A DNA stretch of 64,000 nucleotides, from assembly GCA_009617715.1 (NCBI GenBank), contig VTFK01000035.1, positions 930,001 through 994,000 on the forward strand. The letters run 5' to 3'. Both the position numbers and the translations under genes were made by a program. The notes under the pieces are model-generated. The model was not told the origin of the DNA. It searched no databases and was given only the letters and a program-made list of their open reading frames with translations. Source of the stretch: Plectrocnemia conspersa. Taxonomy: Eukaryota; Arthropoda; Insecta; Trichoptera; Polycentropodidae. Shown one piece after another: positions 45,693 to 51,937 of the stretch. The stretch's first letter is position 1, and every line of letters begins with the position of its first letter.

Positions 45693-48600
45693 TTAATTGT
45701 CCAAGTTTATATAGACAAATATAATAAAAATAAATAAGAATATTACAAAAATGCTTTTAAAATAATTAAAAAATTTGGTAAAAGATTTCGTGTAAGAATT
45801 AGTAATGTATTTGCTGTCGTCAACTTTTTTGTAGTGGAGAAGACTTTGATTTTTTGGAAGCCAAATTTTTTTTGTAAATGTAGAATCTAGGAAACAACTT
45901 TTCTTTTTTCGTATCTTACTTAATTCTTTCGTTACCATTCCAAAAACTTCACACAAATGCTTATCGTTTCCATATTTTAAAACACATTTGCATAGTGTTT
46001 GAATAAACAATGATTCATTATTACTAGATTTACGTTTGCCAATTAAATAATTTACAATGTTTTCAAAAAAAAAACCTGTATTCGAATTGTCATTTTGCAA
46101 GTCTAAATCATCGTCAGTATACAAATATAATACGAAATCTGCCATTTTAATGCTTTTTGACTGTAATGAATCTATTTCATCTTTACCATTTTTATTATAG
46201 TTTACTGTAACAGCAGGAGAAGCAATTGTGTAATATTTACTCTCCCAGGCGTGAATAATCAAGATTTTTGCCTTTTCTATTAATAGTTCTGAACATAGTG
46301 TATTATATAAAAGGTCTTTTATTTCTATTGGTTTGTTATTTGTACCGTATATTCTCTCTTTATTACCATATGACAAAATACAAACAGCGAAAGCTCCGTG
46401 TACATTTTCTACTTTTTTAATATAGTCACGAATAATATAAATAATTTCAATGTGATTTTTATTATTAAAAGACACCACATTAAAACCGAATGACGACCAG
46501 CATGTTTTCAATTCCTCAACATATTTTTCTTCTTCATTTTTAGTAAAATGCTTATTTACAATAAGCAAAAAATAACCGACATTGCTTTTTTCAAATGTTA
46601 ACGAAGAGTTTAAATTTATATTATCGATAAACGTTTTTCTTAATTTAGAATTATGAACGAGACTTTTTTGTACAGCTTCATCAAAGCCGACATATAAATC
46701 TAAATGAGTTTTAAAAAAATTAAATAAACACGAAAGATTTATATCGTTATCTTTTGGTATTTTATTAAACGCATTCCATGAACCAATTTTAATATTTTGT
46801 GACAAAAAAGTATTTAAAATGTTAAATAAAATAAGTCGTTCCTTACAGGAATTCTGAATTTCACATTTATAATATTTGACGAAATCATCTTTGACACCGT
46901 TGTCCATTAAATAAAAATACTTTTTAATTGGATGTATAAATCCAAGTTTATTTTCTGCTTTAGGAATGTATTGCTTAATTACGTGTTTAATATTTTTGTC
47001 AAATTCTCTAATTGCACTTTCATTTTTTATAATCTTTAATGCTTCACGAAGAGCCTCATACCAATAGCCACCGGAACTTTTGGCCCAGTGATTTAAAAAA
47101 TTGTTGCAAGCATTAGCCCAGATGGACGACATCATAGACATAGCCATTTCGTGAGAGTCGAATAGCAAAAATATCAATGATATCTTATCATCATTATCGA
47201 GCTCGCGTTCGATGTTCTCTAGCATTTCTAGTTTTCTAATATGAGACTCAAGAATATCTTTCTGCGAAATATTGGAATATCCAACAATAACTGTATCATG
47301 AAACTGCAAAACTTTATTACTATCACAACAATCGACAGATGAAAAAGGTCGCATTATTGGATTCTTCACATTGAAAGGAAATCGTTCATGAAGTACGAAT
47401 TTGGAATTTACACGTTTTTGAACATTTTTTAGTGCTACATATATTTTAGTACTTTTAGTTTTAAAAAAGTCGATAATAAGTTCAACTTTACATTCGACAT
47501 GTTCGTTTCGATCGTGTTGAAAAGGGGCCCATGTTCCAATTCTTATTTTTGTTAACAATATTAATTTTATAAGAAATATTTCAATATAATCAAATTTAAA
47601 CTCAAGTTTAAAAGATTTTAAAATCATTTTTATATCATTGTCACTTAAGTTATTAAATACTTTATATAATATTTTTTTCATTGGATGTATAAAGTAAGAA
47701 TATTGCAATTCATCAGAAATAAATAAATGACTTAGGGTTTTAAAATCAAGGTTTAAGTCTTCAATGGCTTTTTTATTGTTAATAATTACTAACGCCTCGG
47801 CCAATGTCCCCATCCAGTATGATCCTGTTTCTTTTGCCCAATTACACAATAATTTTCCGAAATTGTCTTCAGGCAGTGGCTCAAAAATATTAAAATTAAA
47901 CATATAAAATTCTGATAGCAAAAATATCAGTGAAATTTGCTCTTTGTGGTTGATACGTTTTGCGATTTTTAATAAATTTTCCTCGTCCGACTCCTTGTTA
48001 AAACTCATTGTATCCATTGTGTTGACTAATACTGAAATATTTTTATCACTGTGTCGATTTTGATACATAGTTAAAGCACAGCCTCCATAACTTCTGTACT
48101 GTTTTGTTTTAGATTCTGTGATATTGCTAAAATTTTGATTCTTAAGTTCATTCTGATGGTTTATTCGAAAAGAAATAAAATCATAAATATGTTTCCAATC
48201 TTCTGGAAAAGTAAAAACTAAATAATTTGCTATTTCACATTTTACATAATATTGTATAGTGCCTTTTAAGGGTGTCCATGATCCAAAATTTATAACATGT
48301 GTCAAACTTAATTTTAAAAATAATAATTCAAAATAACCGCTGTCAAAGTTTTTTAAATGTTCTAGAGCATCTTTGAGTTCAGGATAAATTATACTAAAAT
48401 CTTTTAATTTATTTATATATATGTCAGATTTTTCCTTATTATTATTGAGGCTTTCGCAAAACGAGTATAGCAATTTTTTTAGCGGATGAATAAAGAGCGA
48501 ATATTTTTTGATATAAGGCAAAAAGTTACATTCAGCGTGAGTTTGATCAATGCCAACTTGTTCTAAGACATGATCTTTTTTAATAATCAGCAAAGCTTCC

Positions 48601-50509: not shown

Positions 50510-51937
50510 TTAATGCTGAAACAAATTCAGCATATTGATTAGTTTGAAAAAAAAGTCGGTAATCAGTTCTATATTACATTCAATATATTCTTCGTTATTA
50601 TCTTTAAAAGGAACCCATGGACCTATATCAATGGTACGATCCATTATTAATTTTGCAAGAGCAACCCCAATGTAATTATAATCGTCGTGTAAAATGCAAA
50701 AGCGTTTTCTTAATTTTAAGTATCTACCAGAATCAAAAGCAAGTATCATATATAAACATTTTTTCATGGGATGAACATAATAAGAATATTCAATATTTTC
50801 AGGTAAAAAATAAGAATTAGCATCTTGAAAATTAATGTTTAATATTTCTAAAGCTTTTTTATTTTTGAGAATTAGCAAAGCTTCTACTAATATGCCTATC
50901 CTGTGCGTTTCCATAATTATACATAAAAATTCATGAAAGGAATCATTAGAACGCGATATTTGATAAATCAAGGTTGAGTTATACTCTGATAGCAAAAATA
51001 TTATCACAATTCGTTCGTGAAATTTTAAGTATTCTGCGATTTTTAATAAATTTAATTGATTCGATTGGGTAATATTTATCTTATCAATTGCTTCGATTGG
51101 TATTGAAATATTTGTGTCATTGTGGGTTATTTGAAACATGGTTATACCACAGGCTCGATATTGTCTATACTGTATGTTTTTAGAATCGGTAATTACGTTA
51201 TTAGTAAAATTCTGTTTTTTTTCTTCATTCATACAATTTATTCGGTCTCTGACATTCATAAAAATAGTTCTCCATTTATATCCGATAAATTCATGACTTT
51301 CAAAAATCATTAGTGATATATCTACTAGCTCATAAAATTGTATCGAGTTTTTCAACGGTGTCCATGATCCAAAATGTATCATTTGTAACAATTTTAATTC
51401 AAGAAAAAATAACTCTAAATAATTGCAACCAAATTCATCAAATTGTTTTCTAACGGATTTTTTTAAATACGAGGGTACTTCACAAACCTCCATTAATTTA
51501 TTTATATAAACGCGAGCATCTTTATTATTTAAGCTTTTGCAAAACGCGTGTAACATTTTTTTAAGGGGATGAATTAAAATCGAATATTCGGTAACATAAG
51601 GCAAAAAATTACATTTACCTTGTTCCAGGTCTATGTTAAATTCTTTTAAGACATCGTAATTTCCAATTATCAGCAAAGCTTCCACTAAAGTTGCCTTCCA
51701 GAGCGGTCCATAGTTTACGGCCCAGGTATGCAAAAAATCAAGGGAACCGTTCTTTAGCACGGTTTCACCCAATTTAAGAGAAACTTTGCTGCAGTCGAAT
51801 AGCAAAAATAATAGAGAGATAACCTCATTATCTTTGAGTTTTTTTTCGATTTCAACCAAAACTTTTAGTTCGAGACGTCCAAAATCAAAAAAGGCCAGGG
51901 CGTAGATGCCATCGGAGTTTTTGTTGGCAATTTCCAT
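50510..51937 (-). CDS. Dredd-like: 5' part of gene 3: two DED-pair modules, cut by frameshift
   Basis: This 475-residue frame starts at the ATG 51935-51937; a GTG just before it is ignored because the ATG aligns with the starts of genes 1 and 2. It holds module 1 (GSW at 190-192) and module 2 (GPW at 439-441, Ser replaced by Pro). After 'ECNIELITDFF', a run of eight A on the plus strand (50547-50554) shifts the frame. The next codons are unrelated and stop at 50510, whereas the expected continuation (Q-T-N-Q-Y-A-E-F then NNVQQRINSRF) reads on in the frame of 45693-50414. One extra or two fewer bases in the run would join them into about 2,080 residues. Either a sequence error, a true inactivating mutation, or slippage in expression. 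If real and unrepaired, the product would be a caspase-free prodomain protein. Confidence 0.85.
   Translation of the reverse strand: MEIANKNSDGIYALAFFDFGRLELKVLVEIEKKLKDNEVISLLFLLFDCSKVSLKLGETVLKNGSLDFLHTWAVNYGPLWKATLVEALLIIGNYDVLKEFNIDLEQGKCNFLPYVTEYSILIHPLKKMLHAFCKSLNNKDARVYINKLMEVCEVPSYLKKSVRKQFDEFGCNYLELFFLELKLLQMIHFGSWTPLKNSIQFYELVDISLMIFESHEFIGYKWRTIFMNVRDRINCMNEEKKQNFTNNVITDSKNIQYRQYRACGITMFQITHNDTNISIPIEAIDKINITQSNQLNLLKIAEYLKFHERIVIIFLLSEYNSTLIYQISRSNDSFHEFLCIIMETHRIGILVEALLILKNKKALEILNINFQDANSYFLPENIEYSYYVHPMKKCLYMILAFDSGRYLKLRKRFCILHDDYNYIGVALAKLIMDRTIDIGPWVPFKDNNEEYIECNIELITDFFFKLINMLNLFQH

Follow-up and report, generated by a model that had tools for sequence, protein, structure and literature searches.

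We analysed a 64,000-nucleotide stretch of the trichopteran Plectrocnemia conspersa (assembly GCA_009617715.1, contig VTFK01000035.1, positions 930,001 to 994,000; hereafter the window), which holds three loci of one Dredd family, all on the minus strand. The third, gene 3, appears from its sequence to encode, from at least module 3 of its first unit (unit A) onward, one chain in which an active-looking caspase is followed by a full second unit (unit B) with a dead caspase. The reading we favour, tentatively and at somewhat less than an even chance, is that gene 3 arose by fusion of Dredd copies and works in cis as a caspase-8/c-FLIP-like pair. An initial annotation of the locus had likewise seen a caspase-8/c-FLIP-like pair in a single chain; this describes the domains of one open frame fairly, and it omits a frame change within unit A.

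Two protease domains in one open frame

Genes 1 and 2 each matched the Pfam family Dredd_N in three stretches, Dredd_2nd in two and a caspase domain once, from which we take the family unit to be three prodomain modules plus a caspase. The second open frame of gene 3, the sole stretch of more than 150 codons in its frame, ends with the stop at 45695-45693 and matched Peptidase_C14 over two stretches with 200.3 bits (cut-off 21.4), caspase A giving 143.3 bits and unit B alone 66.2 bits, a likeness beyond what chance would give. Among 18 aligned caspases, the active-site His, Gln and Cys are kept in 17; caspase B alone differs, with Tyr, His and Trp. Alignment and motif table thus bear out the earlier statement that the first protease keeps His and Cys and the second has lost both (THG and QACRE versus SYG and HAWES), the QACRE of caspase A standing against QSCRG in genes 1 and 2. 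By its retained catalytic motifs caspase A is active-looking, and by the loss of His and Cys caspase B is predicted to be catalytically dead. At two arginine columns, which we take to be substrate-pocket positions, caspase B has lysine in both in the 18-caspase alignment and gene 2 also has lysine in the first; another alignment puts an arginine of caspase B on the second column, and these columns are less telling than His and Cys. Caspase B also carries an insertion in its p10 part, before the second arginine column.

AlphaFold2 modelled caspase A with a mean predicted local distance difference test score of 82.4. The sequence of caspase B was modelled with a caspase fold, and the matches listed for it in the structural search were caspases, chain 3h11_B among them; as modelled, caspase B is still a caspase in fold. 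When a 1200-residue piece was cut from the span of the two caspases, which exceeds 1200 residues, all 17 other alignment rows fell on caspase B.

Caspase A runs into unit B in one frame with no stop between them, and Met 48854 of unit B aligns with the start Met of gene 1, gene 2 and unit A. This confirms that the second unit begins where a paralogue's start would fall, at the residue first reported as M521, a count that fits a start at TTG 50414. The accompanying claim, that the whole unit is repeated twice without a stop, survives for the passage from caspase A into unit B and fails for unit A itself, which is broken by the TAA at 50512-50510 and by a frame change at a run of eight T (T8); a complete chain of six modules and two caspases is thus not encoded in a single frame. 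The initial annotation had also listed an assembly error joining two genes as something that would overturn its reading. The longest exact match between units A and B is 20 nucleotides, the 301 nucleotides around the junction share at most 15 exactly with the rest of the window, and there are no ambiguous bases; on the shortness of these matches, a false join through repeats within the window is unlikely. AATAAA or ATTAAA sites number 43 in 45500-52000, with one at 48906 in the linker, and are too frequent to be informative.

The prodomain modules recur throughout the family. Across the 12 copies in the window, 13 columns are invariant, including a His-Pro pair, two Lys, a Gly and a Trp. Of the five window pieces (gene 1, gene 2, unit B and the two pieces of unit A), Dredd_N matched all above its cut-off of 27 (unit B with 158.3 bits), and Dredd_2nd matched four, the exception being the second unit A piece. 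The first piece of unit A is 44% identical to residues 1-463 of gene 1 and matched Dredd_N in two stretches and Dredd_2nd in one, above the Pfam cut-offs. The loss of conserved tryptophans from module 2 of unit A is a possible sign of relaxed constraint. When the module profile was compared with the PDB, the best matches were c-FLIP chains, with E values of 0.2-0.48 over 23 positions that are not significant; the structural searches barely probed the modules, the rows shown being caspases.

Unit B ends in a hydrophobic stretch that is not in genes 1 and 2, which end in acidic tails. The DNA here is rich in T and runs into a TA repeat, and the hydrophobicity could arise by chance; from sequence, the tail may represent either a tail anchor or formerly untranslated sequence that was recruited.

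Table 1. Positions in the window of the Dredd-family loci and of the parts of gene 3
Feature	Position	Strand	Description
Gene 1	27693..30965	-	Single-unit Dredd paralogue, 1090 residues, intact frame, SHG/QSCRG
Gene 2	32031..35324	-	Single-unit Dredd paralogue, 1097 residues from Met at 35324, intact frame, SHG/QSCRG
Unit A, first piece	50510..51937	-	475-residue open frame carrying prodomain modules 1 and 2; ends at TAA 50512-50510
Unit A module 2	50555-51076	-	Without two conserved tryptophans present in the other 11 of 12 module copies
T8 run	50547..50554	-	Paralogue homology switches frame here
Second open frame	45693..50573	-	1626 codons and a stop; holds unit A module 3, caspase A and the whole of unit B
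Unit A module 3	49704..50264	-	Alignment stretch; Dredd_N match starts slightly earlier
Caspase A	48864..49631	-	Active-looking; His codon 49361-49359 (THG), Cys codon 49244-49242 (QACRE), GSWFIQ kept
Linker	48855..48905	-	About 17 residues, from last predicted strand of caspase A to unit B Met; extent read from alignment
Unit B	45693..48854	-	Complete second Dredd unit, 1053 codons, Met 48854
Unit B module 1	48240..48809	-	Prodomain module
Unit B module 2	47469..48005	-	Prodomain module
Unit B module 3	46677..47189	-	Carries best Dredd_N stretch of unit B
Pseudocaspase B	45810..46625	-	His to Tyr, codon 46370-46368 (SYG); Cys to Trp, codon 46247-46245 (HAWES)
Hydrophobic C-terminal stretch	45708..45764	-	19 residues, mean Kyte-Doolittle 2.56; helix in model

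Relationships, selection and local setting

We placed the four window caspases in a tree with 14 outside sequences; two alignments (A2 and A3) held 13 outside proteins, P0013 (180 residues) being left out. The window caspases form one clade (support 99/97), joined by P0006 and P0003, proteins named from Odynerus and Monomorium. The species of P0006, Odynerus spinipes, is a wasp. Caspase 3B, that of unit B, sits on a long branch flagged as unsure of its place. For each of the four regions compared, the codon model prefers, by a log-likelihood margin of 32 to 79, the unrooted split of genes 1 and 2 from 3A and 3B, and this split fits with either rooting. The fusion could thus predate genes 1 and 2; alternatively, 3A and 3B could be a plain tandem pair.

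Pairwise omega lay between 0.20 and 0.64 for every pair and region. A codon model of four sequences gave the 3B branch an omega of 0.26 (caspase 0.11), with omega = 1 rejected (twice the log-likelihood difference 41.3 and 28.6), and the 3A branch an omega of 0.34 (caspase 0.15; 18.1 and 7.1). A single omega of 0.29 fits as well as free branch omegas (log-likelihood -10690.1 versus -10689.6); gene 3 thus seems no more relaxed in either half than genes 1 and 2 are. In simulations without constraint, the 3B frame was still open in 17 of 1000 runs at 80 changes, 1 of 1000 at 160 and 0 of 1000 at 300. By these estimates the unit B branch is on average under purifying selection, and simulations and omega together speak for long constraint on unit B, without bearing on its function today.

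Several observations weigh against the fusion we favour. The frame change and stop split unit A. The omegas are rough averages over near-saturated branches (8.6 neutral changes per codon for the 3B caspase), and they cannot show present function or constraint that continued after catalysis was lost. The AlphaFold alignment of 18 rows is shallow and consists mostly of active caspases. Support for the joining of the window clade to the Dredd sequences (85/96) lies under the tree tool's own mark for strong, and the tree sets 3A outside a group of 3B with genes 1 and 2, at modest support (91/79); given that placing and the unsure position of 3B, the halves need not be a simple tandem pair. Searches for relatives with the fused architecture gave none at an E value of 0.001, using either the 1573-residue frame (4684 candidates) or the unit alignment (7993 scored); both were empty altogether, so this absence is uninformative, and a query of the caspase only gave 14.

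Elsewhere in the window, genes 1 and 2 are a tandem duplication, 27668-31228 and 32005-35554 being 86.7% identical over 3.6 kilobases including short flanks. About 4 kilobases upstream of gene 3, a truncated and decayed 5' piece of a further Dredd copy lies on the minus strand at 55949-56107, with 75.6% identity to 51771-51926 over 156 columns. Copies of a diverged repeat, 67-71% identical (25925-26924, 40951-41804 and 43888-44940), occur downstream of genes 1 and 3 and once more at a site where no gene is recognised; three short stretches translated in six frames showed no clear coding content. At 37470-37697 there is a large inverted repeat with two 96-nucleotide arms, 95% complementary, around a 25-nucleotide spacer, and at 39048-39438 two direct copies of about 195 nucleotides each are 90% identical. 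A short plus-strand open frame at 45261-45512, beside the TA repeat where gene 3 ends, resembles a GIY-YIG/Penelope-type endonuclease; the Pfam scan gave no match for it. Pfam at an E value of 0.01 matched none of ten other open frames in the window, no transfer RNA and no Rfam match were found there, and G+C ranges from 21 to 34% across 2-kilobase blocks. Plasmids gave no match, which is of little relevance; in viral contigs, gene 1 had seven pattern matches and no relative, and the second piece of unit A had no pattern match.

The frame change in unit A and competing explanations

Modules 1 and 2 of unit A (51937-50513, 475 codons) are out of frame with module 3 and caspase A. A sequencing error, a disabling allele and slippage are each possible at T8, and the change is more readily read as a sequencing error or variant allele than as a biological feature. 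The three genes contain 34 runs of at least seven A or T (10, 11 and 13 in genes 1, 2 and 3, respectively), and the frame changes at T8 only; the assembly is therefore not generally poor at such runs, and a single error is still possible. A run of 15 A at 50300-50314 lies within the coding frame of unit A module 3, with the frame kept on both sides. We also scripted a search for an intron over the frame change, which yielded 39 frame-restoring GT-AG candidates of 40-400 nucleotides with donors at most 400 nucleotides before the stop. By a rough home-made splice matrix, the best candidate scored 0.5 for its donor and -0.1 for its acceptor, whereas the gene's best GT scored 3.9; the candidate would also delete conserved coding sequence, and splicing is therefore not favoured.

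If the frame change is instead a fixed mutation, gene 3 would be a recently disabled copy whose remaining frame has not yet decayed. The change and stop in unit A, the missing tryptophans of its module 2 and the truncated piece at 55949-56107, which shows that Dredd copies decay here, all fit such a history. Neutral decay soon brings stops, however, and about 4.8 kilobases after the break are still open, with omega below 1 over the branches; these arguments are compatible with a very recent loss, and we regard disablement as unlikely. Taken as it stands, the frame could also yield two products, a 475-residue prodomain-only protein of modules 1 and 2, resembling a decoy made only of death effector domains, and a separate protein that runs from Met 50300 through module 3, caspase A and unit B. 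That codon is the first in-frame ATG of the second open frame and sits close to residue 89 of the piece, where Dredd_N begins to match module 3. Paralogue homology, however, crosses T8 in successive frames as if formerly continuous, and genes 1 and 2 are continuous there, which leaves the two-product reading distinctly doubtful.

Unit B, which starts at a native Met, might alternatively be expressed alone, from its own promoter or a 5' exon in the tail of unit A, and act as a free c-FLIP-like regulator. By eye, the leader before its Met is unlike that of unit A and of genes 1 and 2 (the latter two being alike), only two GT dinucleotides occur in the 135 nucleotides before the Met and neither has the flanking sequence of a consensus donor, and an unspliced transcript through caspase A would meet no stop before 45695; separate expression is improbable on these grounds. 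Ribosomal or transcriptional slippage on T8 would let one messenger RNA (mRNA) give both a prodomain-only short form and a double-caspase long form. The UUUUUUUUC run is rightly placed for this, an 8-base-pair hairpin starts 12 nucleotides after it, and the region folds with z = -2.3 against shuffles, the same place in genes 1 and 2 and unit B giving 0.35, 0.45 and -0.91. Equally stable folds occur, though, in 150 of the 1264 stretches taken from these genes, and the hairpin spacing is longer than usual, making slippage highly improbable. Slighter still is the chance of the most elaborate version, a membrane-tethered chain forming an obligate intramolecular active/dead heterodimer with a T8 slippage switch, in which one mRNA would supply the equivalents of caspase-8, c-FLIP-L and c-FLIP-S.

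A possible mechanism and known caspase pairs

Under the favoured reading of gene 3 as a fusion, we infer a single protein in the animal, its dimerisation, regulation and pathway, and its anchoring at the membrane. In the likeliest mechanism, the prodomain modules would bring the chain to a FADD/Imd-type complex, where caspase A would pair with pseudocaspase B, in cis or across to a neighbouring chain, by way of the dimer face that caspases usually use. Much as c-FLIP-L does with caspase-8, B might then permit limited activity of A or restrain it, and the output would be local cleavage of Imd/Relish-type substrates, not full activation, with the hydrophobic tail perhaps holding the complex at a membrane.

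Among known systems, insect Dredd proteins such as P0006 share the domain content of the window units; they have the same order of Dredd_N, Dredd_2nd and Peptidase_C14 and beside which the window caspases group. Unlike P0006, with one Dredd_N and one Dredd_2nd match, the window units have three modules each, and gene 3 has two units in tandem; caspase A and genes 1 and 2 retain the C14 catalytic His and Cys, unlike caspase B. Published systems are compared here as described in excerpts of the cited papers. In Drosophila, Dredd acts together with Imd and dFadd; Imd is cleaved by it, and Relish is another of its targets (PMC8738736). The heterodimer of caspase-8 and c-FLIP-L (structure 3H11, named in PMC4715348) resembles gene 3 in combining prodomains and caspases with one dead partner, its pairing controls activity, and c-FLIP-L stabilises or inhibits caspase-8 according to the ratio of the two (PMC7864959). 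It consists of two separate chains, however, whereas gene 3 is one open frame of the insect Dredd lineage with a predicted single protein. The caspase B domain shares with c-FLIP the lack of catalytic His and Cys (here Tyr and Trp), and the likeness to c-FLIP (CFLAR) is a comparison of how things work, the caspase tree having no CFLAR row.

Chains with two caspase domains have precedents, so that the suggestion in the initial annotation that no such protein is known does not hold in kind. The closest described protein is Acropora caspase-X (AmCaspase Xa-Xd, 721 residues), which pairs an inactive caspase domain with an active one in the same chain, has been likened to the c-FLIP/procaspase-8 complex, and was concluded from tests in HeLa cells to have an inactive domain that restrains the active one (PMC4715348). 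Like it, the gene 3 frame has two caspase domains, one of them lacking His and Cys; unlike the coral protein, which has the inactive domain first, a phylogenetic place described as not yet clear and, in the excerpted description, no second set of prodomains between the caspases, gene 3 has the active domain first and three Dredd modules in between. In Mytilus coruscus, two CASc domains are reported for each of four caspases, and 40 of its 51 CASc domains deviate from the active-site pentapeptide (PMC10967218). These share with gene 3 the presence of two caspase domains per protein and differ in being molluscan, active/inactive pairing not being described in that excerpt. Among insects, Aedes aegypti CASPS18 is a decoy said to enhance its active paralogue CASPS19 (PMC4840389); that pair of decoy and active caspase is, unlike gene 3, encoded separately, by homologues of Drosophila Decay. 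A fused Dredd was not found among the titles and abstract openings that searches of an open-access library listed, subscription papers falling mostly outside that scope. We take this arrangement of the gene to be real, and it is unusual. What is new relative to the known double caspases is the Dredd lineage, the active-first order, the whole prodomain-plus-protease unit between the two proteases and the hydrophobic C-terminal tail.

If the fused protein exists, the ratio of active to dead caspase would be set at 1:1 by the gene and not by expression levels, the very ratio said, in the excerpted account, to decide whether c-FLIP-L stabilises or inhibits caspase-8 (PMC7864959). It would offer a natural tethered heterodimer for structural work, and it would be another arrival at the solution seen in coral caspase-X, with the domain order reversed and within the caspase family that serves Imd immunity in insects.
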